Shown here piece by piece: positions 4,494 through 19,742 of a stretch of 23,090 nucleotides of DNA (positions are counted from its first letter, which is position 1; every line of letters starts with the position of its first letter). Origin of the DNA: a virus; the IMG/VR virus record IMGVR_UViG_3300047178_000218, positions 1 to 23,090 of that record; one strand, written 5' to 3'. The notes under the pieces are model-generated. The model saw only the letters and a program-made list of their open reading frames with translations, searched no databases and was not told the origin of the DNA. The translations under genes and the position numbers were made by a program.

Positions 4494-5588
4494 ATGTCAG
4501 GTTCCGTCACACAGTTCACTGGGCCGAATAGTGGCGGTCTGGTTCCCGGTGGTCTTACCGGTCAACAGCTTTCCTACATCACCAGAAGGGCCATCATTCC
4601 TTCGGTCTTTGTGCAGGTTTATCAGGCGCATCCGCTGCTCTCCATGTTGCTTGCGAATACCCAGGCGGCGATGGGCGGCGTCGGTCAGATCACGTTCCCG
4701 GTGCAGGGCTCGTCCTTCGTGTCCTTCCAGTGGGGCGGCTTCGGCGGTGATTTCCAGATCCCGCAGGACCAGGTCGCACTCAACAACGCCCAGTTCAATC
4801 TCAAGGCCGGCATGGTGCCGATCGGCTTCTTCGGCTTTGAAAGCATCATCCAGTCCTCCGAGGTCGTGATCCCCAAGCTGCGGGCGGTGACCTCCGACGC
4901 GGCCGCCGTGATGAAGCAGTCGCTGGCGACATCCCTGTACAGCTACACCTCGAACAATCTGGCCCTTGATTCTCTGGTGGGTGCTTACGATAACGGCACG
5001 AACACCGCGACCTACGGCGGGATTTCGAGAAACAATCTTTACTGGCAGGGCCAGTATTACCCGAACAGTGCCACCATCTGTAACCGGCTTGGCATTGCCC
5101 AGGCTCTGGTCAAGGTGCAGACCGGCGCGGGCGGTGAAAGCCCTGACTTCATTGTCATGAACCCGGTGAACTGGGCCACGCTGATGGCCGATTTCATGGG
5201 GGCCGAGGTGTTCAACACCGACCCGCGCAGCAAATACGGCCGGGGCGACGTGGTTAACGCCGGGTTCCGCGCCATCCGCGTGCTCGACACCCCGGTGTTT
5301 TCGGACCCGTTCTGCCCCGTTGGCGAAATGTATATGATCAATAGCCGCTATTTGGCTATGTATATGCATCCTTCGTTGCAGATGTATTTCACCGGCTTCG
5401 AATCGATGATCCCGCAAGGTCAGCTCGCCTCGATCGGAGTGCTCGTTGCGGCCCTGAATATGTGCTGCATGAAGCCAAGCAGTGGCGCGCACTTTACCGG
5501 GCTGCAGTCGCCGGGCTGGAGTGGCGGCCCGCCGCCGCCGCCTGCCGTGGCTTCTCAGACCGCTTATGCCGGCCAACAGTTAGTCTAA
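4494..5588 (+). CDS. Major capsid protein (364 aa)
   Basis: This is the main shell subunit. The 364-residue length fits podovirus coat proteins of the HK97 fold. The start ATG 4494 has AGGGA at 4482-4486. Features consistent with a coat protein are an N-terminal flexible segment, a beta-rich region with FPVQGSSFVSFQWGGFGGDF (about residues 66-85), a long helix with SDAAAVMKQSLATSLYSYTS, an Asn/Thr/Gly-rich loop (DNGTNTATYGGISR followed by YWQGQYYPN), a DFIVMNPVNWATL strand-helix, and a late IPQGQLASIGVLVAAL segment. The C-terminus is Pro/Gly-rich (PPPPP around residue 345). It is followed 12 nt later by the decoration candidate. No delta-domain protease gene is seen nearby. Confidence 0.85.
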   Translation: MSGSVTQFTGPNSGGLVPGGLTGQQLSYITRRAIIPSVFVQVYQAHPLLSMLLANTQAAMGGVGQITFPVQGSSFVSFQWGGFGGDFQIPQDQVALNNAQFNLKAGMVPIGFFGFESIIQSSEVVIPKLRAVTSDAAAVMKQSLATSLYSYTSNNLALDSLVGAYDNGTNTATYGGISRNNLYWQGQYYPNSATICNRLGIAQALVKVQTGAGGESPDFIVMNPVNWATLMADFMGAEVFNTDPRSKYGRGDVVNAGFRAIRVLDTPVFSDPFCPVGEMYMINSRYLAMYMHPSLQMYFTGFESMIPQGQLASIGVLVAALNMCCMKPSSGAHFTGLQSPGWSGGPPPPPAVASQTAYAGQQLV

Positions 5589-5600
5589 GGAAACCATCAA

Positions 5601-6665
5601 ATGCCCAACCGTTACGGTGGCGTTGGTATCAGCCTGCCATTCAACCAGATCGGCACCGGTCAGATCGGCCTGCAGCCCGGCGAAGTGTTCACCGTCCCCT
5701 CCGGGTTCTTCAATGTCGCCCTTGGTCCGGCGCTGTCGATCCAGTGGTTCAACCCGATCTGCAACATCTGGATGCCGATCGGCGGCCAGCAGGCCGGCAA
5801 CGGTCAGTATGCGCAGCTCGATTCGGACGGCAACAACTACCGGATTTCGAACCAGACCGGCTGCGCCATTGGTGCCGTGATCACCAACGCTGGCTCGGGC
5901 TACACCTCAGCCCCCACCGTCTCGGTTTCGGCCGGCAGCTCCACCTGGGTGGCGATCGTCGGCGGTGCGGTGAGCACGACCGTCACCATCCCGACCGGCG
6001 GGACCAATTACGTCTACCCCCCGGCCGTGATCATTGCCGCACCCCCATCCGGCGGCATTCCGGCGACCGGCTACGCCACGATCAGTGCCGGCGCGGTGAC
6101 CGGTGTCACCATCACCAACCAGGGTGCCGGCTACCTCAGCGCGCCGTTCATCACGCTGCTGAACGACCCGCGCGACACCACCGGTTCCGGGGCCACGGCG
6201 ACCGCGACCTTGACCGGCGCGCAGACCGTCACGGGTGTGCTCTGCACCAACCACGGCACGGCGCTGACCTCCACCCCCACGCTGACCTTCTCGGGCGGCG
6301 GCGGTTCGGCGGCGGCGGCCACGGTGCTGATGGACCAGGCCATCGCCTCGGTCGCCTACACCGCCGGCTCTGGCTACACGGACGGCAGCAAGCAGGTCAC
6401 CACGACCGGCACCGGCCTCACCTCGATCACACCGATTTACACCAATCCGGCGACACAGCAGGGCCTGTTGCGTCCGGTCCCCGCGCTGATCATCCCGGGC
6501 GGCTCGACCACGTTCTCGGCCACCGGCAACGTCATCGTCAACCCGGGTCATTTCTACAGCACAACCGGCGTCACGGCCGTGGTAACCGGTGCGGCCGGTT
6601 CGGGTGCGGCGGCGACCTTCACCTTCGGCGGCTATACCGACTATTTCTGGATGCAGCAGGGCTAA
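5601..6665 (+). CDS. Probable capsid decoration/head fibre protein with Gly-rich beta repeats (354 aa)
   Basis: AAGGA at 5587-5591 precedes ATG 5601 by 9 nt. The first 95 residues form a distinct domain (IGLQPGEVFTVPSGFFNVAL, then SIQWFNPICNIW), a pattern I associate with proteins encoded directly after phage capsid genes. From about residue 96 to 330 there are five degenerate copies of a Gly-rich beta unit built on GxGYxSxP plus a hydrophobic strand and an Ala/Gly tail, for example GSGYTSAPTVSVS. The C-terminus is aromatic (YTDYFWMQQG). The same unit is amplified in the protein at 7430-9970. Such surface-exposed beta repeats often mediate weak carbohydrate adhesion. Decoration is inferred from position; a tail accessory role is possible. 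Confidence 0.6.
   Translation: MPNRYGGVGISLPFNQIGTGQIGLQPGEVFTVPSGFFNVALGPALSIQWFNPICNIWMPIGGQQAGNGQYAQLDSDGNNYRISNQTGCAIGAVITNAGSGYTSAPTVSVSAGSSTWVAIVGGAVSTTVTIPTGGTNYVYPPAVIIAAPPSGGIPATGYATISAGAVTGVTITNQGAGYLSAPFITLLNDPRDTTGSGATATATLTGAQTVTGVLCTNHGTALTSTPTLTFSGGGGSAAAATVLMDQAIASVAYTAGSGYTDGSKQVTTTGTGLTSITPIYTNPATQQGLLRPVPALIIPGGSTTFSATGNVIVNPGHFYSTTGVTAVVTGAAGSGAAATFTFGGYTDYFWMQQG
5888..5920 (+). repeat. 33-bp exact direct repeat, copy 1
   Basis: The 33 bases 5888-5920 in the decoration-candidate gene are identical to 8788-8820 in the hub gene, and both encode the AGSGYTSAPTV-type motif in frame. Identity stops at both ends. Identity at synonymous positions suggests recent copying or gene conversion between the two repeat domains. 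Confidence 0.85.
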
Positions 6666-6671
6666 CAGGGT

Positions 6672-7430
6672 GTGCGCCTCAGTCAGTACCTCACTGAATT
6701 CAGAGACCTGATCCGCGACCCGCAGGGGCTGTTCGTGACCGAGCAGTCCGCTGTGCAATACATCAACGAGGCACGATCGACGACCTCGTTACTGACCGGC
6801 TGCTGCCGGCGGCTGATTTCCGGCATGCCAGCGTTTGGCGCCACCGCACAGCCCGACAGCGCGGTGCCGAGCGGCTCGCAGCCGAACGCCGATCCGAACA
6901 GCGCCTTTGCCACCATCGCCGGCCAGGAGCGCTACCCGTATATCGGCTTTGCCAATCCGTTTCTTAACGAACAGTTCGCCGGGATGCGCGGGATCTGCGA
7001 CGTGATTTCGGTGTCGGTGTCCTGGGGTGGCGCGGTGCTGCCCAGTCTCGACTGGATGCCGTTCGAGGATTTCCAGGCCTATTGCCGGTCAAACATCGTA
7101 TTGGTGACGAATTATCCCGTCGCTTTCACGGTGTTTAACGATGGTGAGGCCGGTGAGGTCTGGCTGTTTCCCGTTCCGCAGCAGGCCAGTGTCATGCAAT
7201 GGGACACGTTCTGCACCGCGGGAGCGCTGGAAAGCGACAATGACTTCGATGCGATCCCGCAGCCGTTTCAGAACGGTGTGAAGTATTACGCCGCCGCCAG
7301 GGCCTATGAGAGTTCCGGCCGGATGGGCATGGCGCAGATCATGTATGCCCAGTTTGAGCAGAGTAACATGTTGCGCCGGTCAGCCGCGGATCGCGGCAAG
7401 GTGCCGAGCCGGTATCCGACCTACCCGTAA
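6672..7430 (+). CDS. Head-tail adaptor/head completion protein (252 aa)
   Basis: The only in-frame start is GTG 6672, just after the stop of the preceding gene. The 252-residue product begins with a helical segment (SQYLTEFRDLIRD, then SAVQYINEARS) typical of phage adaptor proteins that plug the portal ring. It contains a beta-rich middle (YPYIGFANPF, ISVSVSWGGAVLPSLDWMPF) and ends with helices (NGVKYYAAARAYESSGRMG, then MYAQFEQSNMLRRSAADRG). The KYYAAARAYE helix and the pattern of a strand region between helical ends match P22 gp4-like adaptors. It overlaps the next gene by one base (TAATG). The family call is by pattern and order, not by alignment. Confidence 0.7.
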   Translation: MRLSQYLTEFRDLIRDPQGLFVTEQSAVQYINEARSTTSLLTGCCRRLISGMPAFGATAQPDSAVPSGSQPNADPNSAFATIAGQERYPYIGFANPFLNEQFAGMRGICDVISVSVSWGGAVLPSLDWMPFEDFQAYCRSNIVLVTNYPVAFTVFNDGEAGEVWLFPVPQQASVMQWDTFCTAGALESDNDFDAIPQPFQNGVKYYAAARAYESSGRMGMAQIMYAQFEQSNMLRRSAADRGKVPSRYPTYP

Positions 7431-9970
7431 TGCCGGCATCAGAAGGCATTTCAAAACTCGCGGGATCGGAAGAAAAACGTCTCGGCATCCCCGAGGCAAC
7501 CAAGTTTTTCTCGTGCGGCAATTTCGGTTCGATGAACCAGACCGATGCGCGCACCGCGATTGAGGACAGCGAATTCTTCATCGTCGAGAACTTCCTGCTC
7601 ACAGGCAGGGGTTCGTTGCGCACAATTTATGACCAGGGTGCGGCGGTCTACACCGCCCCGTCCGGTCTCTCCATCATCTATTTCAGCTGGTTCAACATCA
7701 ACGCCGATGTCGCCTGCGCGGTGTTCCTCAGCGACGGCACGGCGGTGCAGGTCGCTTACCCGACGTATGTGGTCACACCGATCAGCGCCATGCCAGGCAC
7801 GTTTTACAACGCCACCCAACTGCCGGTCGCCTGCCAGTGGGGTGATCTGTTCCTGCTGATCGCCAATAACATCACCCCCAACACCTACTGGATCTGGGAC
7901 GGCTCCGTCCTCTATGCCGCCGGCGGGATCGGCCCGTTCCAGCTCGGCGACCTCACCTCGGGCGGAACCAACTACACATCGCCGCCGGACGTGATTTTTT
8001 ATGGCGGTGCGGGCAGCGGCGCCGCGGCGACCGCCACGATCGAAAACGGCTCGGTGACCGCACTGACGGTGACCAACCCCGGCACCGGCTACACCCCGGC
8101 CGATCAGGTCGCCATCGCATTCGTCAACGGCGGCAGCGACGGCGGCGCGGTGCTGACCGCCATTCTCAGCTCCAGCGGGGTGGACTCGGTGGTCATCCTC
8201 GGCGGCGGCTCTGGCTACACCACCGCGCCCACCGTGACATTCTCCGGCGGCGGCGGGCAATTCGCCGCGGGCTCGGCAAACATCCTCGACGGCGCGGTTG
8301 TCTCAGTCACCGTGACCACCAGCGGCACCGGCTACACCAGCCCGCCAACGGTCACGCTGACCGGCGGCAGGGGTTCAGGGGCGGCGGCGGCAGCCGTGCT
8401 GGCGATCAGCGGAGTCTCCAGCATCGATGTGGTCACCGCCGGGCACGGCTACACATCAGCCCCCACGGTGACGATCTCTGGCGGCGGCGGCAGCGGCGCC
8501 ACCGCGGTTGCGACGCTCACCAACGGCGGGGTCAGCGCAATCACCGTCACCAACGAGGGTTCCGCCTACACCGGCACCCCAACAGTGAGTTTTTCCGGCG
8601 GCGGCGGTACGGGCGCCGCCGGCGTCGCCCAGCTGACCGTCGCCTCGATTTCAGGTGTCACCATCGTCTATGGCGGCTCGGGCTATGTCGGCACGCCCCA
8701 GCTGACCTTTGTGGGCGGCGGCGGCTCAGGGGCGACAGCCACGGCGCTGGTGACCGGGGGCACCATTTCGTCAATCGAGATGACCGCCGCTGGCTCGGGC
8801 TACACCTCAGCCCCCACCGTGCAGATCCAGGCCGGGGTCAACAACGCCGCATCGGGCACCATCGCGCTGATGCCCTTCGGGGTTTCGGGCACGTCGATCG
8901 AGACGTTTCAGTCCCGCGTGTGGATCAGCAATCCGGCCGAAGTCGGGCCAATCACCAACGGCGGCGTGATCAATATCTCAGCCCCCGAATCGCTGACCGA
9001 TTTCGCCACGTCGGCCGGCGGTGATCTGTTCACCAGCAACGACCGGTTCCTGCGCAAGCAATACGTCGCCCTGCATCAGAGCAACGGCTACCTCTACACG
9101 CTGGCCGATTCGTCGGTCAGTAACGTTTCCAACGTGCAGACCTCGGGATCGCCGCCCAGCACCACCTTCAATTACTACAACACCCACGCCCAGATCGGCG
9201 CGGCCTGGCGCGATACCGTGCAGGATTTCGGCCAGACCATCCTGTTCGGCAACGCCAACGGCATCAATGCGATCTATGGCGGCGCGGTGACCCGTGCTTC
9301 GAAGAAAATGGATGACCTCTTCGCCAACGCGGTGTTTCCGCCGGCTGCCGGGGCGGTGACCCCGAGTGCGGCGGTCGCCAATATCTACACCATCCCCGTC
9401 TACCTGATGAACATGACCATCCGCGATCCGCAGACCCAGGCGCTGCGCACGGTGATGGTGGCCTGGAACGAGAAAGAATGGTTTCTCGTCTCGCAGAAAA
9501 GCAGCATGACGTTCATCGCCACGCTGGAAGTCGCCTCCGTGATGAGTGCCTGGGGCACGGATGGTCACGCCCTTTACCCCCTGATGACCACGCCGTCCGG
9601 CCTGCAGAAGCGCCTGGTGACCAAGCTCTGGGGCGGCGAGCGCGAATACATCATCAAACAGCCGCTGGTTGACTACATCCGTGCCACCGACAAATCCGCT
9701 GGCCAGGAAGGGGTTTCCTTCACCGTCACCATGGAGTCGGCGGGTCTCGCCCAGCAGATCGGTCAGGCGGCGCAGCTGCCGTCCGTTGCCTATGTCAATC
9801 CGGTGCAGCCCAACTTCCTTGCACCCAACTACACCGCGCCGGTCTGGGGCGGCCAGACCGCGGCGGTCGCCGGCACCGCACTTGGTGCCACCATAACAAC
9901 GAACTCGCCGGATGTGCTAATCAGCGGGATATCGTTTGCCTACAGAGACGACGGGTTTCTTTTTGGCTAG
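7430..9970 (+). CDS. Tail hub / DNA-stabilisation-type protein with a beta-repeat insertion (846 aa)
   Basis: In P22-like phages the protein after the adaptor (gp10) extends the neck and retains packaged DNA. This 846-residue product occupies that slot. The N-terminal part (1-175) has FFSCGNFGSMNQ, FFIVENFLLTGRGSLR and CQWGDLFLLIANN, and the C-terminal part (about 470-846) has QSRVWISNP, AWRDTVQDFGQTILFGNANG, WNEKEWFLVSQKSSM and LVTKLWGGEREYIIKQP, resembling beta-propeller-like hub proteins of short-tailed phages. Between them residues about 177-468 are eight tandem Gly-rich beta units not expected in gp10. The flanks look continuous with each other, so the repeats seem to be an insertion. 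It starts at ATG 7430 coupled to the adaptor gene. Confidence 0.7.
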   Translation: MPASEGISKLAGSEEKRLGIPEATKFFSCGNFGSMNQTDARTAIEDSEFFIVENFLLTGRGSLRTIYDQGAAVYTAPSGLSIIYFSWFNINADVACAVFLSDGTAVQVAYPTYVVTPISAMPGTFYNATQLPVACQWGDLFLLIANNITPNTYWIWDGSVLYAAGGIGPFQLGDLTSGGTNYTSPPDVIFYGGAGSGAAATATIENGSVTALTVTNPGTGYTPADQVAIAFVNGGSDGGAVLTAILSSSGVDSVVILGGGSGYTTAPTVTFSGGGGQFAAGSANILDGAVVSVTVTTSGTGYTSPPTVTLTGGRGSGAAAAAVLAISGVSSIDVVTAGHGYTSAPTVTISGGGGSGATAVATLTNGGVSAITVTNEGSAYTGTPTVSFSGGGGTGAAGVAQLTVASISGVTIVYGGSGYVGTPQLTFVGGGGSGATATALVTGGTISSIEMTAAGSGYTSAPTVQIQAGVNNAASGTIALMPFGVSGTSIETFQSRVWISNPAEVGPITNGGVINISAPESLTDFATSAGGDLFTSNDRFLRKQYVALHQSNGYLYTLADSSVSNVSNVQTSGSPPSTTFNYYNTHAQIGAAWRDTVQDFGQTILFGNANGINAIYGGAVTRASKKMDDLFANAVFPPAAGAVTPSAAVANIYTIPVYLMNMTIRDPQTQALRTVMVAWNEKEWFLVSQKSSMTFIATLEVASVMSAWGTDGHALYPLMTTPSGLQKRLVTKLWGGEREYIIKQPLVDYIRATDKSAGQEGVSFTVTMESAGLAQQIGQAAQLPSVAYVNPVQPNFLAPNYTAPVWGGQTAAVAGTALGATITTNSPDVLISGISFAYRDDGFLFG
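7958..8835 (+). repeat. Eight tandem units of a Gly-rich GxGYTSxP beta repeat inside the hub gene
   Basis: Units of roughly 35 codons repeat the pattern GxGYT-S-x-P-T-V, a hydrophobic strand, then GGGGSGA and an Ala/Thr-rich strand. Recognisable heads are NYTSPP, GTGYTPA, GSGYTTAPTV, GTGYTSPPTV, GHGYTSAPTV, SAYTGTPTV, GSGYVGTPQL and GSGYTSAPTV. The DNA shares a 33-bp identical stretch with the gene at 5601-6665. Confidence 0.85.
8788..8820 (+). repeat. 33-bp exact direct repeat, copy 2
   Basis: This stretch is identical to 5888-5920 and lies in the eighth, last beta unit of the hub protein. It is the longest cross-gene identity I noticed between these two genes. Confidence 0.85.
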
Positions 9971-9981
9971 GGAGGGTGGCG

Positions 9982-10689
9982 TTGCGGATTTTCGTGCTCA
10001 CCCTGCTTGCGGTCATTTCGGTTTTTATTGCCAGACCGGCACGCGCCGACACCGCCTGCGGCAGCGTTTCGCCAGAAGTGCAAATCATCAATCCCTCGAT
10101 CACGGGCGCACCCCAGCCGGTCGGCCTGGCACTTTACGATCTGAACACCAAGGGTCTGTTCGTGCAGTTCGCCGGCCAGGGCAATATCGCCACCTATTTC
10201 GTGGGCGTGCCCAACCAGGCGATCGTGGGTCACGCCACGGTGCCCTGGTCGTCGATCGCGTTTTATCCGCAGGCGTTGGTGCAGACCAACAGCAACTGCC
10301 CGGTGCTGGCCGCCGCCGGCACGCCGATTCTCACCACCGGCAACGCCTATCCGACCACGAGCCCGTTCGTGCTGGCACCCTGCCCGCTGATCAGCACCGG
10401 CCAGAAACTCACCGTTGCCGGCATTCAGTTCCCGCCGTTCACAGTCACACTGGCGGTCTATGACGCCATGACGCAGTTCCTCACCGTCGAATTCGTCAGC
10501 GGCATCTCGGCGCTGTTCGTCGGTGTGCCGGCATCAATCATTTCGCAACCAATCCAGTGGAATTCGCTCTATCCTTACATGGAGGCAATTATGACGCAGG
10601 ACAGTGCCTGCCCGGTGCTGGCCGGCGGCAGCGACATTTACCAGGGCTGGCAGTTCGGTGTTTCGGCATTTGGGGCAGGTGGATTTTGA
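9982..10689 (+). CDS. Secreted protein with two tandem KTSC-like domains (235 aa)
   Basis: I prefer TTG 9982 over GTG 9976: GGAGG at 9971-9975 is 6 nt before the TTG but abuts the GTG. The product starts with a typical Sec signal peptide, a hydrophobic stretch FVLTLLAVISVF and a predicted cleavage after RPARA. The mature part contains two copies of a KTSC-like unit: ALYDLNTKGLFVQFAG with TYFVGVP, then AVYDAMTQFLTVEFVSG with ALFVGVP, each followed by a NCPVLA or ACPVLA segment. KTSC domains are about 60-residue modules known from phages and bacteria, of unclear function. Four cysteines could form two disulfides. It opens the signal-peptide block; its stop overlaps the next start (TTGA). Confidence 0.65.
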   Translation: MRIFVLTLLAVISVFIARPARADTACGSVSPEVQIINPSITGAPQPVGLALYDLNTKGLFVQFAGQGNIATYFVGVPNQAIVGHATVPWSSIAFYPQALVQTNSNCPVLAAAGTPILTTGNAYPTTSPFVLAPCPLISTGQKLTVAGIQFPPFTVTLAVYDAMTQFLTVEFVSGISALFVGVPASIISQPIQWNSLYPYMEAIMTQDSACPVLAGGSDIYQGWQFGVSAFGAGGF

Positions 10690-11918
10690 TCAAGTGGCTG
10701 CTGTTGCTGGCGTTGGTTCCGACCGTGGCTTTGGCCGCATCGCCCCAGCTTGCCTGGACGGACAAAGCTGAAGCAACCAACGGCACGCTGGTCAGCCCGA
10801 CGATCAGCGGTGCGGCGGTCTTCACCGGCACCGTGACGGCATCGGCCTTGTGGGCGTATCCGACCGATCCGGCCTTTGGCGCCAAATGCGACGGCACCAC
10901 CGATGACAGCACTGCCCTTGCGGCATGGTTTGCCTATCTGGTGGCAAACGGTGTCGAGGGACGCCTGCCGCCGGGAACCTGTGTGGCGAACACCGCGCAG
11001 ACCTGGAACATGTCATCGCGCACCAGCGGCATTCGCATTCGCGGCACCAGTCAGGGCTCGTCAGTGCTGGATCTGCGCGGCGTCTCGTCCGGCACACCGC
11101 TGCTGATGACCGGCAGCGGCACCGCTTTGTTCTACAGCCATTTCTCTGACTTTACCGTGCTGACCAATATCGCCGGGCCGGGCGTGGCTCTGGGCAATTC
11201 CAGCCTGACCGACGCATTTAACAGTTTCACATTCACACAGATCGAGTTCAAGAACGTCGCCAACAACTCAGCCGCTGTCGCACTGCAGATCAATGGGGTG
11301 TACAATTCGGACTTCCAGACGGTGACCACCAACACGGGCGGCGGTTCGACATCCGGCACCGGGCTGGGCACGTCGCTGGAGCTGCAGTTCAGCGCATTCA
11401 ACCGGTTCATGGGCTCGTTTTCGAGTGCCGCGATCGGGATTTATCTCACCAACAACTACAATTACGCCAACGTGTTTACGTCGGTGGACGTTGAAAACGT
11501 CAATACAGCGGTGCAGATCGATTCGGCGAACGCCTCGCGAAACACCTGGGTTGGCGGCACATTTGTCGCGGAAACCGACCTCAACACGACGGCCGGTGTG
11601 ACCAATGTTTTCATCAATCCCAATCTGAGCCTCTACAGCGGGGGTGCCAGAACCGCCGGAACGACCGGGATGTTTCTGGAGCAGTTCGGTGCGGTCGGCG
11701 TGACCACCCCGTCGATGCCGGCCAGCGGCACCGCCTATACCAACGCAACCGGGCGCATCATGAGTGTCAACATACTGAACGGGACCGTGAGCGCCATTCA
11801 GATCGGCGGCACCACCGTCGCCACCGCCACAAATTCGACGGTCATCCTGCAGCCGAATCAAACCATCACGCTGACCTATTCCGCCACGCCGGGCTGGGTA
11901 TGGCTGCCGGTGCTCTAG
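10686..11918 (+). CDS. Secreted pectate-lyase-fold (beta-helix) tail-spike-like protein (410 aa)
   Basis: The frame is open from 10557, but the TTG at 10686 is chosen: it overlaps the upstream stop (TTGA) and begins a signal peptide (MIKWLLLLALVPTVALA, cleavage before ASP). Residues 64-70, FGAKCDG, followed by TTDDSTALAAW, are the N-terminal signature of the Pectate_lyase_3 family, the right-handed beta-helix of many phage spikes and depolymerases. The middle is Asn/Ser/Thr-rich parallel beta-helix sequence. The C-terminal part (VNILNGTVSAIQIGG, then QTITLTYSATPGWVW) resembles C-terminal domains of tail fibres. Two cysteines occur. Catalytic residues cannot be read from sequence, so it may be a binder or an enzyme. 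The signal peptide is unusual for a virion spike. Confidence 0.7.
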   Translation: MIKWLLLLALVPTVALAASPQLAWTDKAEATNGTLVSPTISGAAVFTGTVTASALWAYPTDPAFGAKCDGTTDDSTALAAWFAYLVANGVEGRLPPGTCVANTAQTWNMSSRTSGIRIRGTSQGSSVLDLRGVSSGTPLLMTGSGTALFYSHFSDFTVLTNIAGPGVALGNSSLTDAFNSFTFTQIEFKNVANNSAAVALQINGVYNSDFQTVTTNTGGGSTSGTGLGTSLELQFSAFNRFMGSFSSAAIGIYLTNNYNYANVFTSVDVENVNTAVQIDSANASRNTWVGGTFVAETDLNTTAGVTNVFINPNLSLYSGGARTAGTTGMFLEQFGAVGVTTPSMPASGTAYTNATGRIMSVNILNGTVSAIQIGGTTVATATNSTVILQPNQTITLTYSATPGWVWLPVL

Positions 11919-11928
11919 GACGCATGCC

Positions 11929-13611
11929 ATGAGATTAAACCCATCGTTTCTCACGGCACTCGGTCTGGCCGCCGCGTGGCCCGCGCTGGGTGCAACGCCG
12001 AACCCGCTGCTGTCAAACAACGGCTTTGTCGTGACCTTGTTCGGGGGCGTCTACAACAGCACCCCGCCGGCCCTTTTGAACACGCAGACCTCACCGTTCC
12101 AGCTCGACAGCAGCGGCAACCTCAAGGTCAACGTCGTGACCGGCGGTGGCGGCGGCGGCGGCGGCGGCGGATCGACCTTTGGCGTGCCGTTTCCGGTGAG
12201 CGGCCAGGCCATCGGCGGTCTCTCGCCGGCGGGCAACCTGATCGCGCTGGGCGTCGATTACAGCAACAACGCCTATGTCAACCTGCGCACACCGCTGCCC
12301 GCCGGATCCAACGTCATTGGCAGCGTGATGCAAAACGGCGCCTGGACGGTCGGGATCACCGGGACCGTGCCGCTGCCGACCGGGGCGGCGCAGGCGCAGT
12401 ACCAGGGCGGCATTTATAACGCCAGCGCACCCGTGCTCAGCAGCGGCCAGATGACCGCGCTGCAGGTCGATAACCTCGGCAACCTCAAGGTCAACGTCGT
12501 GACCGGTGGCGGCGGCGGTGGCAGCGGCGGCGGCACCTCATCGCTGTTCACCTCGGCGTTTCCCATTTCCGGCACGGCGATCGGTGCGTCCAACAACGGC
12601 AATATGGTAGCACTCGGCGCTGACGGTGCGAGCAACCTCAACGTCGATTTGCAGACCGCCTTGCCCGCCGGATCCAACGTCATCGGCGCGGTGGCGCAGT
12701 CGGGCACCTGGAACACCACGGTTGCAACCGCGCTGCCGGCCGGAACCAACACAATCGGCGCGGTGGCGCAGGGCGGCACCTGGTCGGTCAATGTCATCGG
12801 CACCTTGCCGCCCATTTCCGGATCGGCCACGGCCGTGTTGCAGTCGTCCGTGCAGGGCTCGCCTTCGGGCGGCACTGCGGCGGTGGCGTCGCTGCTGACC
12901 GGCGGCGTCTACAGCAGCAGCCCGCCCACGCTCACAGGCGGTCAGCAGACGGGTTTGCAGGTCGATGCCAACGGCAACCTCAAGATCGCTATCGCCTCGG
13001 GCGGCGGCTCGGGCGGCACGGCATCCTCGTTCGGGCTCGCGTTTCCCTCGGTCGGCACCGCGATCGGCGCCAAGAACGGCGGCAACATGGTTGGCTTGAA
13101 CGCTGACGTGTCGGGCAATCTGCAGGTCAACATCCAGTCGTTCAGCGGCATGGCGACCGCCGCCAACCAGACCTCGGTGATCGGCAGCGTCGCGGCGGGA
13201 ACCGCTGCCAACAGCGCTGAGCTGACCGGTGCGGTTTACAACGCCACCCAGCCCAGCGCCGCGAGCGGTCAGCAGGTCGCCGTGCAGGCCGATTCCCATG
13301 GCAATCTTCGCCAGACCAGAGGTGTGGTCACCAAGGTGCCGCTGGACGTTGCAACGGTCACCACGGGCGGCACGGCGGTGACCGCGCTGACAGCGGGCCA
13401 CAGCACCGCGGGCGGCTGGATCTTCAATCCCGATACCGCGACGTATGATCTGTGCATCAACGAAATCGGCACCGCGTCGGGCACGACCTCGGCCGGCTCG
13501 ACGACCTGCATTGAGCCAAACACGACGTACGCCATCGCGCCTGGCAGCGGTGCGGTCTCGGTGATTTCGGCCGACAGCGCTCACGCATTTTCAGGCATGG
13601 GATACCAGTAA
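11929..13611 (+). CDS. Secreted fibre-like protein with four GGxYN repeats (560 aa)
   Basis: AGGA at 11917-11920 precedes ATG 11929. An N-terminal signal peptide (hydrophobic FLTALGLAAAWPALGA) is predicted to be cut before TPN. The mature protein has four repeats opening with GGVYN, GGIYN, GGVYS and GAVYN at residues 39, 160, 325 and 434. Each continues to a Q-rich strand, LQVDxxGNLKV in the first three, and then in the first three a polyglycine or Gly/Ser hinge. Between them lie LPAGSNVIG strands. Such repeats are common in phage tail fibres. The C-terminal about 90 residues (GGWIFNPDTATYDLCINEIG, then TTCIEPNTTY) form a separate cap with two cysteines likely to pair. It is probably a fibrous adhesin; no catalytic motif is seen. 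Confidence 0.65.
   Translation: MRLNPSFLTALGLAAAWPALGATPNPLLSNNGFVVTLFGGVYNSTPPALLNTQTSPFQLDSSGNLKVNVVTGGGGGGGGGGSTFGVPFPVSGQAIGGLSPAGNLIALGVDYSNNAYVNLRTPLPAGSNVIGSVMQNGAWTVGITGTVPLPTGAAQAQYQGGIYNASAPVLSSGQMTALQVDNLGNLKVNVVTGGGGGGSGGGTSSLFTSAFPISGTAIGASNNGNMVALGADGASNLNVDLQTALPAGSNVIGAVAQSGTWNTTVATALPAGTNTIGAVAQGGTWSVNVIGTLPPISGSATAVLQSSVQGSPSGGTAAVASLLTGGVYSSSPPTLTGGQQTGLQVDANGNLKIAIASGGGSGGTASSFGLAFPSVGTAIGAKNGGNMVGLNADVSGNLQVNIQSFSGMATAANQTSVIGSVAAGTAANSAELTGAVYNATQPSAASGQQVAVQADSHGNLRQTRGVVTKVPLDVATVTTGGTAVTALTAGHSTAGGWIFNPDTATYDLCINEIGTASGTTSAGSTTCIEPNTTYAIAPGSGAVSVISADSAHAFSGMGYQ
12114..12143 (+). repeat. 30-bp exact direct repeat, copy 1 (GNLKVNVVTG unit)
   Basis: Bases 12114-12143 are identical to 12477-12506 and encode GNLKVNVVTG just before the polyglycine hinges. 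This shows recent duplication or homogenisation of the fibre repeat. Confidence 0.8.
12477..12506 (+). repeat. 30-bp exact direct repeat, copy 2
   Basis: This stretch is identical to 12114-12143, 363 bp (121 codons) downstream in the same frame, so unequal recombination between copies would delete or add one whole repeat without a frameshift. Confidence 0.8.
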
Positions 13612-15605
13612 TGTTTGTGCGCCGGCTCGCCGCCTTTCTCATCGCGTCGTTGCTGCCGGGTGCCGCGTTCGCCCAGCAGGTCACCAGTTTCCCGCCGGCC
13701 AATCTGCCGCTCTCCGGTGCCGAGGTGCTGTATCTGGTGCAGGGCGGCCAGTCGAAGCAGACGCCGGTTTCGACGCTGACCAACACCGGATCATTCGCGG
13801 CCCTCAGCGCCGGCACGCTCACGGTGACCGGCACCACGTCGCTCGGTGTCACCGGGCTGTCCGGCAAGCTCGACACCATGGCCTCCAGCGCGGCCGGCGC
13901 GGGCCTTAACATCGCCACCGGCAATGCCCCGTCCTCGTGTATCGCGGGCGATGTGTGGATGACCACATCGGGGGTGTTTGCCTGCCCCACCAACGGCTCG
14001 CCGGTTGGCCCGTTTGGCGCGGGCGGCGGGGTGAACAACAGCACGCTCAACTATCTGGCCTATTACGCCACCACCGGTAACACCCTCAGCGGCCTCGCCA
14101 CGGCAAACAGCAGCGTGCTGGTCACGTCCAACGCGGGCGTGCCGTCGTGGAGTCTCACGCTGCCGAACAACCTGATTGCCGCAAGCTTTACCCCGACGAT
14201 CAAGAACTACGCGACCACATCCGCGCTGCCGACAGTGACGAGTTCCAACGCGGGTGAAATCGGCTACGTCACCAATTGCCGCAACGGCTCTGAAGGTGGC
14301 GGCCTCGGCACGGGCTGCCTTTACACTGTGAACGCCGCCGGCACCTGGACCGCTCTGCCCTCGATCCCGACCGGGCAGATTACCGTGGGTGGCCAGGCGC
14401 TTTACCTCGGTTCAGCGACCAACAATCAGGGCACCGGCAGCCTCATCCAAACGAGCAGCGGCAGCTTTACATCCGGCCATTGCGTGCAGTTCAACTCCAG
14501 CGGCGCGACGGTGGACTCGGGTGCGGCCTGCGGCGGCGGCAGCGGCGGGTCGGGCACGGTCACCTCGGGCACCGCAAACCAGATCGCTTGGTATTCCTCA
14601 AGCGGCACCGCCGTGGCGGGGCTCTCCACCGCCAACGGCGGTGTGCTTGTGACATCTGGCACGGGTGTGCCGTCGATCTCGACCACCCTGCCGGCCAGCT
14701 TGTCTGCCAGCACGATGACGCTGATCAGCCCGGCGATGAGCGGCACCGCGACATATTCCGCGATGACCGGCACCGGCAAGCTCACCACGGCTGCGTCCAC
14801 CACAGCTGGCGCTGGCTTGAACCTCACGCCCGGCACCGCGCCGACCAGTCCCAACAATGGCGATCTTTGGACCACCAGCTCCGCCCTGCAGGTCCGCATC
14901 AACGGCTCGACCATTACGGTTGGCACCGGCTCTGGCTCGGTCAGCAGCATCGCCACAACCAGCCCGATCACGGGCGGGACGATCACCACCACCGGCACCA
15001 TCGCCTGCCCGACCTGCGCGCTCACCACCAACGGCGGGCTGCTGACCGCCAGTTCGCCGGTCAACATCAGCGCCTCGGGTCAGATTACCTGCCCGACCTG
15101 TGTGACCACTTTTGGCGGCGGCTTTCTCACCTCTACATTACCTGTCAATGTCAACGCACAGGGCTTGATCACCTGCACGACGTGCCTGACCAGCTCGGCG
15201 GGCGGTGCGCTGGCCGGAACCGCGCCGGTCACCATCACCGGCAACACGATCTCGCTGGGCAATCAGTACGGCGCGGCTGTCTTCAACTGGGACAGCAGCA
15301 CGACGGTCGCCGCTTACACCTACTATATCACCCCGGCCTGGCCGTGGACCTCTGGCTCGATCGTCAGCGTGAGCTACCTGACCGGCGGCCCGGGCTCGCC
15401 CAGCTTCAATATCGCGCTGCAGATCAACGGCACAAATGTCGCGACCTGCAACGGCATCACGGTTTCATCCGGAACGCTGACGACCACCACCTGCGGCAGC
15501 AATACGATTGCCGCCGGCAACAAGGTTACGCTAGTGACCTCGGCGATTGTCGGCTCACCGAATTCCGCGGCAGTCCAGGTCAAATATGCCAGGAGTGCCC
15601 CATAA
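13611..15605 (+). CDS. Secreted fibre-like protein with a triple CxxC repeat (664 aa)
   Basis: ATG 13611 is coupled to the previous stop by TAATG. The N-terminus (MFVRRLAAFLIASLLPGAAFA, written here without its long run after cleavage) is a signal peptide cut before QQV. The mature protein is Ser/Thr/Gly/Ala-rich with fibre-type strands, including two copies of an ASTTAGAGLNLTPG-like unit (AGAGLNIATGNAP near residue 100, AGAGLNLTPGTAP near 400) and two ANSSVLVT/ANGGVLVT units. Near the C-terminus three CxTC motifs recur at exact 28-residue intervals (C466/C469, C494/C497, C522/C525). The last about 110 residues (FNWDSSTTVAAYTYYITPAW onward) look like a compact beta-sandwich tip. Fourteen cysteines in total. 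It is probably a tail fibre or adhesin; no enzyme motif is seen. Confidence 0.65.
   Translation: MFVRRLAAFLIASLLPGAAFAQQVTSFPPANLPLSGAEVLYLVQGGQSKQTPVSTLTNTGSFAALSAGTLTVTGTTSLGVTGLSGKLDTMASSAAGAGLNIATGNAPSSCIAGDVWMTTSGVFACPTNGSPVGPFGAGGGVNNSTLNYLAYYATTGNTLSGLATANSSVLVTSNAGVPSWSLTLPNNLIAASFTPTIKNYATTSALPTVTSSNAGEIGYVTNCRNGSEGGGLGTGCLYTVNAAGTWTALPSIPTGQITVGGQALYLGSATNNQGTGSLIQTSSGSFTSGHCVQFNSSGATVDSGAACGGGSGGSGTVTSGTANQIAWYSSSGTAVAGLSTANGGVLVTSGTGVPSISTTLPASLSASTMTLISPAMSGTATYSAMTGTGKLTTAASTTAGAGLNLTPGTAPTSPNNGDLWTTSSALQVRINGSTITVGTGSGSVSSIATTSPITGGTITTTGTIACPTCALTTNGGLLTASSPVNISASGQITCPTCVTTFGGGFLTSTLPVNVNAQGLITCTTCLTSSAGGALAGTAPVTITGNTISLGNQYGAAVFNWDSSTTVAAYTYYITPAWPWTSGSIVSVSYLTGGPGSPSFNIALQINGTNVATCNGITVSSGTLTTTTCGSNTIAAGNKVTLVTSAIVGSPNSAAVQVKYARSAP
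15006..15185 (+). repeat. Three CxTC repeats with an exact 28-codon period
   Basis: CPTC, CPTC and CTTC occur at residues 466, 494 and 522 of the fibre-like protein. Each is followed by a GG-L strand and a PVxIxxxG strand (for example SSPVNISASGQI). The regular period suggests a stacked beta structure with one Cys pair per rung, either disulfide or metal bound. Confidence 0.8.
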
Positions 15606-15606
15606 A

Positions 15607-18435
15607 ATGCGGCGGATTATACCGGCGGTTCTGGTTGTGTCTCTGCTGACCGCCACGCCCTCCGCCGTGCGTGCCAGCACCTACTTTACGACCAATACCC
15701 AAGGCCAGATCCTGCAACCGAACGGTCAGCTCTGGCAGGGCCGCGGCATCGCAATTGGTGCGGATGTCATTTACAACGGCAACCAGCTTCCCACATTGGT
15801 CACCAATGCCGCCGCTCAGCCGCTGACCACGTTATTCCCAAAGATAAATTATGTCCGCCTTGCGATCAATCTGGGCAATTACGCCTGTGGCCCATACGAT
15901 TTCACCCAGGGTCTGCCGTCAACATTTACCACGCAGATCGCCCAGCTCACCGCGCTTGGCATTGTCGTTATTATCGACCAGCATGCTTTTCCGCAGACCA
16001 ACCCAAACAACCAAAACCAGTCTTGCAGCGTTCAGACCGGCGCCCAGCTGACGGCGGAACTGGCTTGGTATCAAGCCTGGGCGCAAGCCTATCTGAATAA
16101 CCCGTATGTGTGGTTTCAGACACCAAATGAGCCGGTGTGGGGTCCGCCAAACGGCACCCAGGCACCCGTGACGGCCGAGCAGCTTGCCATCTACAACACG
16201 GTGCGCGCGACCGGTAACAACAGCATTGTGGTGCTGGAACTGATCGGAGGTGGTGTTTCCGCTTACCTTGGGGCGAATTGCCAGGCCAATTGCCTCACGC
16301 CGATCTCGGCCTATGCCGGAATGACAAACACCGTTTGGGACTACCACGCGTATGCCGGCACCGAAGTGGCGACGGTTGCGCAGTTTCAGTCGGGATTCGG
16401 GATGAATATCGGCCTGCTTGCGAGCATACCAAATGCGGCGGGCACGATGCCGACCGTGATCGGCGAGTTTGGCCCTTCCGGATCAGGCAATGGCTACGAT
16501 GCCAGTGGCTTGAACTTGCTCAATGCCGTCTTTGGCAGCGGTTACAGCGCGGCTGCGTGGGTCGCCAATTTATGCGGTTCTCAAAACGATTGTTCCGCAA
16601 CCACGACTGACACCGACGCTTTGTTGAACAACGCACTGGTTCTGACAACGAATTACGGCGTCTACACGTCCAGCTGGACGGCCTCAAATCCGTGTTGCGG
16701 CCCCACCCCGACGCCAACCCCGACGCCAACCCCGACGCCGAGCGGTCCGGTTGCTGTGCCTGCCCCGCTGACCGGCAACGTCACCACGCAGAACTGGGCG
16801 GCTTACGACGTGAGCTTCAGCACGCCGGCCTATCCCTATACAGTGCAGCTTACGAGCGGGCTTCCTTTCCACTTTAATGTTCTTCCACCAGCTCAATACA
16901 ATCCAACCGCGTATAAATATCCTTTGCTGATCTGGCTGCATCCGACCTTTGATAATAGCTGGTATCAAGGCTCGAACCAGCCCTATCAGCTGGTCGGCCA
17001 GGGTTTCGAGGCGGCGCTGTTCAACCAGGTTCCGTTTCTTACGTCCTATCCAGCCGTGATTGCGGTGCCTTACGCGGATCAGACATGCGGCAACGACGCG
17101 GTGTGCAACTGGGGCGGCTGGGTCAACAACGGAACGGTTGGCTCGGGAACCAATTTTTCCGGCGACACCGGGCCGAACACCTTTGCCGTTCTGGACATGA
17201 TCCAGTACCTGGAGGCGCACTACTCGATCGACACGAGCCGGATTTACGTGGAGGGCTTCAGCCTGGGCGGCATCGGCTCAGAGTATTTCATGCTGCTCTA
17301 CAACAGCCTGAACGGCAATCCGCCCGTATTTGCTGCCGGCGCCTCGATGGCTGGCGTTTTGCAGATCAACGGCATTGCCGCCGGGCCAACCAGTGCGAAT
17401 GCAACCACGATGACGAACGTCCCGGTGTGGTGGTTTTCAGGGGCGCAGGACACCGACAGCAATCCGTCACAGTGGAATAACCCGATCGCCACCGATCTGG
17501 GTGCCACATCCTATCCGTCCGCGATCACCAGCGTGTCCGCCAACAAAATCGGCAACAGCCAGATGGAATACACGCTCTGCCCGAGCTGCGGCCATCAGGA
17601 CCAGGATGCGAACGGCAATCCGGTGTGGACCAACACCACGATCATGAACTGGATGTTCGCGATCAACGGCGGAAACACCCCCACGCCAACCCCAACCCCG
17701 ACCCCGACGCCAACCCCAACCCCGACGCCGGGTGCGACGACCTGGAACCCCGGCGACATCGGCGGCGGCATGACCCTCTCAAACGGCAATCTGACGGCCA
17801 CCTCGACTGGCACGGGCGGCCAGGGGGTCCGCGACACCACAAGCCTCTCGACCGGCAAGGCCTGTTTCCAGGTGACTCTCTCAGCACTGACAAACGACAT
17901 GGCGGTGGGCGTCTCCAACGCATCCGAGGTGCTGACTGGCTTCCTTGGCGGGTCGGGTTCGCTCGGCATCGGCCTTTACCAGGCATACGGCGCGGGCCAG
18001 CAGATTTTCGCAAACGGTGCGGCGGTCAGTTCGGGCACCGCTGGCGTGAGCAGCCCGGGCGATGTCGTCACCGTCGAGCTGGACGCCACCAACGCGCTGA
18101 TCTGGTTCACCGACACGGCTATGCGTAATGCTGGCTACACCTGGAACAACAGCACCACAGCCAACCCGGAGGCCGGCACGGGTGGGTTGAGCACGGTGAG
18201 TTTCGGCGGTCCCTACTTCATCGAGGCGAACGACCAGGAGGCGGGCGGAAGCTGGCTGCTGAACCCGTCGCCATCGAACACCTGCACCGCATCGTTCCCC
18301 GACTGGCAGCTGCCCACGGTCACCAACTACCACCCGCTGCTGCTCAATCTGACCCGCGACGAGCGGGCCACACCGCCGCTCGCGGACTTTTCGTTGCCAA
18401 ATCTGTATAAGCAGATTCGTTACACAGGAGATTGA
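15607..18435 (+). CDS. Secreted trimodular enzyme: GH5 cellulase-like + esterase + SPRY-like (942 aa)
   Basis: ATG 15607 is preferred over the upstream in-frame ATG because it begins a signal peptide (RRIIPAVLVVSLLTATPS, cut after AVRA) and AGGAG lies at 15591-15595. Residues 24-365 are a glycoside hydrolase family 5-like domain: R84 in YVRLAIN, H126 in DQHAF, acid/base E175 in TPNEP, H247 in DYHAY, nucleophile E287 in VIGEFGP, and W318. GH5 enzymes cleave beta-glucans such as cellulose. A Pro-Thr linker (366-378) leads to an alpha/beta-hydrolase (about 380-688) with S552 in GFSLGG, D615 in SGAQDTD and H663 in CGHQD, as in CE1-type esterases. A second linker, (TP)9 at 691-708, precedes a SPRY-like domain (about 713-900). 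Fourteen cysteines. The likely role is degrading an acylated beta-glucan outside the cell; substrate unproven. Confidence 0.75.
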   Translation: MRRIIPAVLVVSLLTATPSAVRASTYFTTNTQGQILQPNGQLWQGRGIAIGADVIYNGNQLPTLVTNAAAQPLTTLFPKINYVRLAINLGNYACGPYDFTQGLPSTFTTQIAQLTALGIVVIIDQHAFPQTNPNNQNQSCSVQTGAQLTAELAWYQAWAQAYLNNPYVWFQTPNEPVWGPPNGTQAPVTAEQLAIYNTVRATGNNSIVVLELIGGGVSAYLGANCQANCLTPISAYAGMTNTVWDYHAYAGTEVATVAQFQSGFGMNIGLLASIPNAAGTMPTVIGEFGPSGSGNGYDASGLNLLNAVFGSGYSAAAWVANLCGSQNDCSATTTDTDALLNNALVLTTNYGVYTSSWTASNPCCGPTPTPTPTPTPTPSGPVAVPAPLTGNVTTQNWAAYDVSFSTPAYPYTVQLTSGLPFHFNVLPPAQYNPTAYKYPLLIWLHPTFDNSWYQGSNQPYQLVGQGFEAALFNQVPFLTSYPAVIAVPYADQTCGNDAVCNWGGWVNNGTVGSGTNFSGDTGPNTFAVLDMIQYLEAHYSIDTSRIYVEGFSLGGIGSEYFMLLYNSLNGNPPVFAAGASMAGVLQINGIAAGPTSANATTMTNVPVWWFSGAQDTDSNPSQWNNPIATDLGATSYPSAITSVSANKIGNSQMEYTLCPSCGHQDQDANGNPVWTNTTIMNWMFAINGGNTPTPTPTPTPTPTPTPTPGATTWNPGDIGGGMTLSNGNLTATSTGTGGQGVRDTTSLSTGKACFQVTLSALTNDMAVGVSNASEVLTGFLGGSGSLGIGLYQAYGAGQQIFANGAAVSSGTAGVSSPGDVVTVELDATNALIWFTDTAMRNAGYTWNNSTTANPEAGTGGLSTVSFGGPYFIEANDQEAGGSWLLNPSPSNTCTASFPDWQLPTVTNYHPLLLNLTRDERATPPLADFSLPNLYKQIRYTGD
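16702..16740 (+). repeat. Pro-Thr linker repeat 1
   Basis: Thirteen codons of alternating Pro and Thr, built from a repeated 12-base unit (ccgacgccaacc), join the GH5-like and esterase domains. PT linkers are typical of secreted polysaccharide-degrading enzymes. Copy number can change by slippage without breaking the frame. Confidence 0.85.
17677..17730 (+). repeat. Pro-Thr linker repeat 2, nine TP pairs
   Basis: Nine Thr-Pro pairs (residues 691-708) join the esterase and SPRY-like domains, with hexanucleotide-like repeats similar to linker 1. The shared repeat sequence would allow in-frame recombination that removes the whole esterase module. Confidence 0.85.
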
Positions 18436-18637: not shown

Positions 18638-18975
18638 TGGCGCTCGTTTCTTTGTTGAACATACCAACCGATCCGGCGTCGTGGTCGATCTGGGGGTTTG
18701 CGCACCGCGATCAGCACACGCTCGCGCGCACCGCTGTGCAAAGCACCTACCAGATCAACCTGACCGAATACCCGCTGGACCCGATCGATCTGACCGACAT
18801 CAATAACTTCCTGACCTGGAACGAGCAGGCGCACGACGATATCAACGCGGTGCTCGGCACCCAGGGCAGCAACCTCAATCAGACCGACCTGTCCGATCCC
18901 GCGCAGCTCCAGGCTTGGATTTACCTGCATTTTCTGGAGCATCAGACCTGGTCGTCGGTGCTCCGCTTTTCATGA
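18637..18975 (+). CDS. Phage protein of a recurring uncharacterised type (112 aa)
   Basis: ATG 18637 is coupled to the preceding stop. The 112-residue product begins with aromatic and hydrophobic residues (LNIPTDPASWSIWGFAHRDQ), then an acidic loop and a C-terminal helical part with NFLTWNEQAHDDINAVLG, then DLSDPAQLQAWIYLHFLEHQ. The pattern of a His/Asp-containing helix, a D-L-S-D-P turn and a W-L-x-x-x-F-x-x-H helix is one I have seen in phage proteins encoded near the tail and ejection genes, without a known function. It overlaps the GNAT-like gene by ATGA. It could be an assembly chaperone or minor tail part. Confidence 0.6.
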   Translation: MALVSLLNIPTDPASWSIWGFAHRDQHTLARTAVQSTYQINLTEYPLDPIDLTDINNFLTWNEQAHDDINAVLGTQGSNLNQTDLSDPAQLQAWIYLHFLEHQTWSSVLRFS

Positions 18976-19742
18976 CCGCGATGATGGTTGAGGTGCAGCG
19001 GTGCCTGGATGCGGAGCGGATCAATGCGCTGATCAACCAGCCAGACATCCGCCCCTGGGTGGCCGGCATGGACGAAGGCGCGCTCGATCTCAGCGCCACC
19101 GTAGCCAATCACGCCAACCACCTGGTGATGGGTGAGTATGGCGGGATTCTGTTTGCCCAGCTGCTGCCGGGCATTTACGAGGCGCACACGGTGGTGGATT
19201 CCTGCGCACGCGGGCGCTGGACCAAGGCCATGATCCAGTCCGCGGTGCATTGCATGTTCACCCAAACCGATGCGATGGAGATCACCACGCGGATACCGCA
19301 GGGCCATCCGGCGGCAATGACCGCGGCCCTCGGTGCCGGAATGCGGCCCGAGATGACCATTCCCGATGCGTACCTGTTCCGCGGCCGGCTGTGCGATGTG
19401 CATGTGCTCAGCTTTCGGCTGCAGGACTGGCTGCCAAACGCGCCGCATTTGATCGGGCGCGGCCGGTGGTTTCATGCGCGGCTCGCACAGGAGGCCGAGC
19501 GGCTGGGCATCCGCGATGCGAGGCACGAGCCCGACGATCTGCACAACCGCTATGTCGGCGCTGCCATAGAAATGATGTTTGGCGGGCAGGCGGGCAAAGC
19601 TGTTACGATATACAATCGATGGGCAAGAATCTGCCGGCATCCCACGGTTGAATGGCTTTCTGATGGCCTGATTCGGTTTGACTTTGGGCTGCTGCGGTTT
19701 GGTTCGAATGATATCGAGGTGATCCTTGAGGATGCGGTTTGA
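18972..19742 (+). CDS. GNAT-fold protein in the P22 gp14 position (256 aa)
   Basis: I chose ATG 18972 over the upstream in-frame start at 18915 because it forms an ATGA overlap with the previous stop. The 256-residue product shows the acetyltransferase order: a strand ending GEYGGILFAQLL, a strand EAHTVVD, a degenerate acetyl-CoA loop RGRWT (residues 80-84), an MIQSAVHCMFTQ helix, then MEITTRIPQGHPAAMTAALG, in which an Asn-like position before the last helix is replaced. Related podoviruses carry a GNAT-like protein before the ejection genes (P22 gp14 in the same order). It may act as a virion assembly factor rather than an enzyme; the imperfect Q/RxxGxG loop leaves activity uncertain. Confidence 0.65.
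   Translation: MTAMMVEVQRCLDAERINALINQPDIRPWVAGMDEGALDLSATVANHANHLVMGEYGGILFAQLLPGIYEAHTVVDSCARGRWTKAMIQSAVHCMFTQTDAMEITTRIPQGHPAAMTAALGAGMRPEMTIPDAYLFRGRLCDVHVLSFRLQDWLPNAPHLIGRGRWFHARLAQEAERLGIRDARHEPDDLHNRYVGAAIEMMFGGQAGKAVTIYNRWARICRHPTVEWLSDGLIRFDFGLLRFGSNDIEVILEDAV

Follow-up and report, generated by a model that had tools for sequence, protein, structure and literature searches.

The known polysaccharide depolymerases of phage tail spikes and fibres are mostly trimeric beta-helix proteins without a signal peptide. The enzyme analyzed here shares with them its position among structural genes, a proposed role in polysaccharide cleavage and an exchange of cassettes between phages, however it is a chain composed of a TIM barrel and an alpha/beta-hydrolase with Pro-Thr linkers.

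A viral GH5 enzyme has been described from the Stordalen Mire bog, where it is encoded on an uncultivated peat phage contig, and its cleavage of beta-1,4-mannan was confirmed on glucomannan and galactomannan (Emerson et al. 2018, PMC6786970). The likeness to the present enzyme is by description and consists of the GH5 domain. In the accessible part of that report the gene is treated as an auxiliary metabolic gene, and no esterase or SPRY partner and no fibre cassette are described with it. SPRY lectins are present in the tail fibres of jumbo phages (PMC7824862), where the SPRY domain is a virion adhesion module, as is proposed below. In contrast to the enzyme described here, the jumbo-phage SPRY domains are not linked, in the accessible sections of that paper, to GH or esterase catalytic modules. 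Precedents are thus available both for a viral GH5 mannanase from peat and for lectins of the SPRY type in phage tails. Mannanases acting as phage depolymerases and signal peptides on phage fibres were both without precedent in the literature searched, the coverage of which was incomplete.

Outside of phages, the GH5 profile best matches T. fusca and Streptomyces beta-mannanases (1bqc, 4fk9, 3wsu), at full coverage and with the two catalytic Glu residues aligned; these are bacterial secreted enzymes that do not carry a phage SPRY domain. The esterase domain has the same fold and Ser-Asp-His triad as CE1-like/PHB-depolymerase-type esterases (3doh, 3wyd LC-Est1C, 1jjf), but its identity to these is low and it scores under the NCBIfam cut-offs.

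Locus and domain organization

The window, i.e. the whole stretch of DNA analyzed, corresponds to an uncultivated virus record of 23,090 bases, which is a fragment. It comes from a soil-type phage that has an adaptor gene of the SU10 type. The enzyme gene is located inside the structural/tail module, between nozzle-like and fibre genes on one side and the genes at 19726 and 21156 on the other. Signal peptides were assigned by a hand rule that requires a basic n-region, a hydrophobic core and an AxA-like site. The features are as follows.

4494..5588, +, major head protein (phrog_9953, 9e-23), the query for finding related phages
9976..10689, +, short gene with signal peptide and a weak KTSC match
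10686..11918, +, tail-spike-like gene with signal peptide and TTG start (phrog_11182 tail spike, 4.7e-27)
11929..13611, +, fibre-like gene with signal peptide (homologues in L053, L055 and L056)
13611..15605, +, fibre gene with signal peptide, 1 bp upstream of the enzyme gene, its proposed cassette partner (homologues upstream of enzymes)
15607-18435, +, enzyme open reading frame, 942 aa
15607..15675, +, predicted signal peptide by the hand rule, residues 1-23, MRRIIPAVLVVSLLTATPSAVRA
15679..16692, +, GH5 catalytic domain, residues 25-362 (PF00150, profile, fold, residues)
16702..16740, +, Pro-Thr linker 1, residues 366-378 (read directly from the translation)
16744..17676, +, alpha/beta-hydrolase esterase domain, residues 380-690, with S552, D615 and H663 (fold, triad, identity)
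17680..17733, +, Pro-Thr linker 2, about residues 692-709 (read directly from the translation)
17737..18321, +, SPRY domain, about residues 711-905 (fold match, phrog_10080, phage relatives)
18322..18432, +, C-terminal tail of about 37 aa, a proposed docking peptide (tail profile)

Two structural genes further upstream (5601-6665 and 7430-9970) have common repeated Gly-rich modules (GSGYTSAPTVTISGGGG) and match many PHROG virion families.

The identity of the three domains, GH5, a CE1/PHB-depolymerase-type serine esterase and SPRY, is close to certain. The initial annotation, made from the sequence, had described an exported GH5-esterase-SPRY chain with Pro-Thr linkers in a phage, and profiles, folds, the predicted signal peptide and gene context all uphold this. 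Residues R84, H126, E175, H247, E287, W318, S552, D615 and H663 are each found at the positions it gave, and N174 is in place as well. The structure prediction of the full-length chain has a mean pLDDT of 54.2 and is good for GH5 (mostly pLDDT 55-95) and poor elsewhere. The esterase and SPRY domains were refolded apart from GH5 with a 14-row alignment, giving a mean pLDDT of 71.8. The folds of GH5, esterase and SPRY were all recovered by Foldseek.

Catalytic domains and substrate

The GH5 domain matches PF00150 at residues 79-320 (1.4e-16; 61.2 bits compared with a gathering score of 23.5). The GH5 signature is present, i.e. two catalytic Glu residues (in NEP and in GEF/GEY) together with the conserved H247 and W318. 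None of the nine aligned GH5 rows departs from E175, H247 or E287; a chance explanation of the GH5 assignment is ruled out by the retention of both Glu residues in these rows. E175 is predicted to be the acid/base and E287 the nucleophile. The GH5 profile alignment pairs them with E128 and E225 of 1bqc, a T. fusca mannanase, presumably the catalytic residues of that enzyme. The predicted TIM-barrel fold resembles that of GH5 enzymes (Foldseek E-value 4.0e-10).

A ten-row GH5 profile compared with solved structures places four beta-mannanase-type chains first, all with full coverage (1bqc, 3.4e-15; 4fk9, 6e-13; 3wsu, 3.7e-12; 4y7e, 7.4e-11), and endoglucanases follow from 2.6e-8. We take 1bqc, 4fk9 and 3wsu to be GH5_8. 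Thus GH5_8-type structures lead by sequence profile, whereas endoglucanases lead by predicted fold. In related phages the same chain also carries a GH26 domain (Pfam 1e-33 to 1e-37 in proteins P0002-P0004), and GH26 enzymes are mostly mannanases. The initial annotation had favored a cellulase-type GH5 acting with a deacylase on an acylated cellulose-like matrix, for instance in a biofilm or pellicle. An acylated beta-linked matrix is a plausible target. The cellulase part, with the endoglucanase fold matches behind it and GH16-like domains in two other phage proteins (L066 and L068) that point to beta-glucan, appears very improbable in view of the profile ranking and the GH26 partners. Acetylated or acylated (gluco)mannan is the preferred substrate and would fit better than cellulose, because the mannanase-type profile ranking, the GH26 partners and the endomannanase described from a peat-bog virus (PMC6786970) point the same way. 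Beta-glucan is kept as the second candidate because of the endoglucanase fold ranking and the GH16-like domain of L066 and L068.

The esterase domain has an alpha/beta-hydrolase fold with a GxSxG serine, Asp and His, as seen in the predicted model and the alignment. S552 and D615 are invariant in seven of seven esterase rows, and H663 in all six rows that reach this position. The closest predicted-fold match is the thermostable esterase 3doh (4.2e-11), and further Foldseek matches are 3wyd (LC-Est1C), 9j07 and 1jjf, which include acetyl xylan esterase and feruloyl esterase. The Pfam match is weak (0.009), and the NCBIfam PHB-depolymerase matches (1.7e-8) are under the cut-offs (34.3 bits versus 150 and 30.4 versus 107.85). 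The domain is similar to the CE1/PHB-depolymerase type in fold and site, but it is outside the curated family cut-off and is not filed as a member.

Rearranged forms in other phages

With the window head protein as query, 33 related contigs or loci were found. Relatives of the enzyme are encoded by five of these, and three of the five are near-identical. Domain orders were assigned by profile; the alignment was built with collinear bridge sequences, since a 30-row fragment alignment misplaced domains. The orders are listed below, beginning with a signal peptide (SP).

Window: SP-GH5-esterase-SPRY
L053: SP-esterase-GH5-GH26-SPRY
L055 and L056: SP-GH5-GDSL-GH26-SPRY
L068: SP-GH5-GH16-like-esterase-SPRY
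L117: SP-...-esterase-GH5-...-SPRY (GH5 by Pfam)
L118 (same contig as L078): SP-GH5-like-SPRY (GH5-like by eye)
L120: SP-GH5-like, without SPRY (Pfam 23.4 bits versus a cut-off of 23.5)

Shuffled versions of the enzyme are present at the equivalent place in at least seven distinct phage groups. Three related groups add GH26 to the chain; it is found in P0002-P0004, and a GDSL esterase in P0003 and P0004, at the equivalent genomic position. The gene order around the enzyme is kept in L053 and L055 and partly in L056. A pattern scan for the whole enzyme in uncultivated viral contigs and named phage records found none, and the exact order GH5-esterase-SPRY was found nowhere else by such scans, which rely on short patterns and may overlook relatives. 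The proposal that the architecture is new to phages thus stands for the named-record collection, but close variants exist in uncultivated phages.

Looser variants without the window-type fibre are present in other kinds of phage (L064, L065, L066 and L067). L064 encodes a 2329 aa protein that adjoins tail genes, L065 is beside topoisomerase II genes and L066 beside a head protein. The GH16-like domain of L066 and L068 displays an ExDxxE motif and was recognized by eye, with no Pfam match. In the L064 protein (L064:2733-9722), a very large multi-enzyme encoded in a tail region, SPRY and an esterase are combined with four fn3 domains and two stretches that match the GH5 profile.

Both catalytic Glu residues are kept in the GH5 domains of L053, L055 and L056 (L053:12462-16646, L055:6965-10813, L056:1121-4948). 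The equivalents of R84 and H126 are lost in the aligned GH5 of L053 and L055, which were possibly weakened after the gain of GH26; the GH26 domain may therefore do the work in these two chains.

The window GH5 domain is about 31-38% identical to the GH5 of related phages, whereas the esterase is 64% identical to the L053 domain and 68% to that of L068. The GH5 part has a GC3 of 0.68 and a codon-usage z of -6.2, compared with z values of -2.5 for the esterase and -1.1 for SPRY, the last being no clear departure. The lower GC relative to the neighboring genes, which the initial annotation had pointed out, is real and is strongest in GH5. A gene annotated without a function at 18915-19742 also departs in codon usage (z -4.1; it has a 45% identical homologue in L062), and the departure is thus a tendency and not proof. 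The codon departure together with the low GH5 identity suggests, as the simplest reading, a recent exchange of the GH5 module.

Acquisition from a bacterium had also been proposed. Codon usage is in keeping with the gain of the GH5 part by the phage, but the proposal does not hold for the whole chain. A bacterial origin of the gene as a whole was rejected, since the esterase and SPRY are more closely related to phage sequences and the bacterial sequences L002 and L003 match GH5 alone (34-35% identity). The close phage relatives of the esterase and SPRY indicate that the chain arose in phages, by domain shuffling. A plasmid search with the head protein or the fibre, as a clue to the host, gave no match.

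Association with a fibre gene

A fibre gene with a signal peptide is directly upstream of an enzyme gene with a signal peptide in the window and in L053, L055, L068, L117, L118 and L120, with a gap of -4 to +10 bp. In L056 the fibre-enzyme pair is recognized by synteny. The fibres of the window, L053, L055 and L068 are 58-70% identical (window fibre versus the other three, 58-63%), and the L078/L118 fibre is about 39% identical to that of the window. In a tblastn search of the stretches retrieved for L068, L117, L118 and L120, the portal, head, adaptor, nozzle and internal proteins of the window gave no match. L117 carries an SU10-type portal gene; upstream of it is an 855-aa open reading frame (L117:4568-7132) with a LAGLIDADG match (4.7e-7), perhaps a terminase intein. 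Because the pair is kept among phages, some without detectable common core genes, fibre and enzyme would appear to form an exchangeable two-gene cassette.

Cassette enzymes usually end in SPRY and a short conserved tail. The predicted SPRY fold resembles that of TRIM9 (7b2s; 1.6e-9, TM 0.75) and TRIM67 (7qs5; TM 0.77-0.78), and the region matches phrog_10080 (4.2e-9), a PHROG family of unknown function. PF00622 gave no match to the window protein itself; L080 and L081, phage relatives of its SPRY domain, pass Pfam SPRY. In PHROGs, the fibre (13611) and the enzyme gave no fibre match and SPRY alone matches. Relatives of the SPRY domain are located in a fibre adjoining baseplate J and within a central tail fibre J.

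The C-terminal tail is common to the cassette enzymes. It is placed after SPRY except in L120, where it comes after the GH domain. A tail profile matched no other open reading frame in the fetched loci below an E-value of 7.5; it was built from these same tails, so its specificity alone is informative. The tail is proposed to be a docking peptide.

Alternatively, the gene might have an auxiliary metabolic role, its product breaking down plant hemicellulose of peat or soil and so feeding the host. GH5, GH26 and esterase together are a hemicellulose set, and endomannanase activity was confirmed for the peat-bog GH5 (PMC6786970). However the gene is in a tail-fibre module and is paired with a fibre gene even in phages that are unrelated, the protein carries a phage tail adhesin domain (SPRY) and no sugar uptake genes were seen nearby, which makes this explanation improbable.

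Export and the virion

By the hand rule, exactly five listed open reading frames of the window have signal peptides and these are consecutive (9976, 10686, 11929, 13611 and 15607). That of the enzyme displays RR in the n-region, a hydrophobic core and an AxA-like site. The signal peptides of the neighboring fibre genes were a point absent from the earlier description. A similar block is found by the same rule in L053, L055 and L056, and L055 has in it an extra gene with a signal peptide (L055:4054-4968) that matches the alpha-L-arabinofuranosidase B catalytic domain (1.9e-11). In the distant phages MW202753 and MW202825 the rule finds no signal peptide among the CDS tested. The enzyme and the fibre (13611) are both Cys-rich, with 14 Cys each.

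There is about an even chance that the enzyme is a modular polysaccharide depolymerase of a tail-fibre cassette that reaches the virion or its fibre. Its GH5 domain would cut a mannan or glucomannan in its beta-1,4-linked backbone, while the esterase would strip acyl groups, probably acetate, that otherwise block GH5, and SPRY would act as a lectin-like adhesion module. The enzyme would be produced together with the upstream fibre, presumably exported by Sec, and probably attached to that fibre, perhaps via the conserved C-terminal tail. Virions or released tail complexes could then work through the capsule or biofilm of the host. The enzymatic part would be swapped between phages to suit the local matrix, with the fibre and usually SPRY kept. 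Association with the virion is suggested by the position in the structural module, by the SPRY relatives in tail proteins and by the SPRY lectins described in jumbo-phage tail fibres (PMC7824862).

The signal peptide is hard to reconcile with the virion part of this proposal, because the chain leaves the cytoplasm, the normal site of tailed-virion assembly. A soluble depolymerase that is no part of the virion, but is secreted with its fibre partners during infection and loosens the matrix for progeny either in the medium or at the cell surface, would account for signal peptides on five consecutive genes and is in keeping with the 14 Cys and with Pro-Thr linkers typical of secreted enzymes. It is a possible but unlikely explanation, as one of the five genes is a tail-spike relative and SPRY relatives are found in genuine tail proteins. 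Slightly more doubtful is that fibres and depolymerases are exported via the host Sec system, undergo disulfide-bonded folding outside the cytoplasm and join the virion no earlier than lysis, so that the tail is finished outside the cytoplasm, the enzyme being a swappable arm.

The signal-peptide block on fibre genes poses a clear and testable question on phage assembly. The set of proteins is a source of ready-made combinations of GH5, GH26, GH16-like and esterase domains for use against acylated matrices. If the tail-fibre depolymerase reading is true, some “auxiliary metabolic” glycosidases of soil viruses may be exchangeable tail tools directed against the host’s own matrix, and this would alter the view of viral effects on soil carbon.
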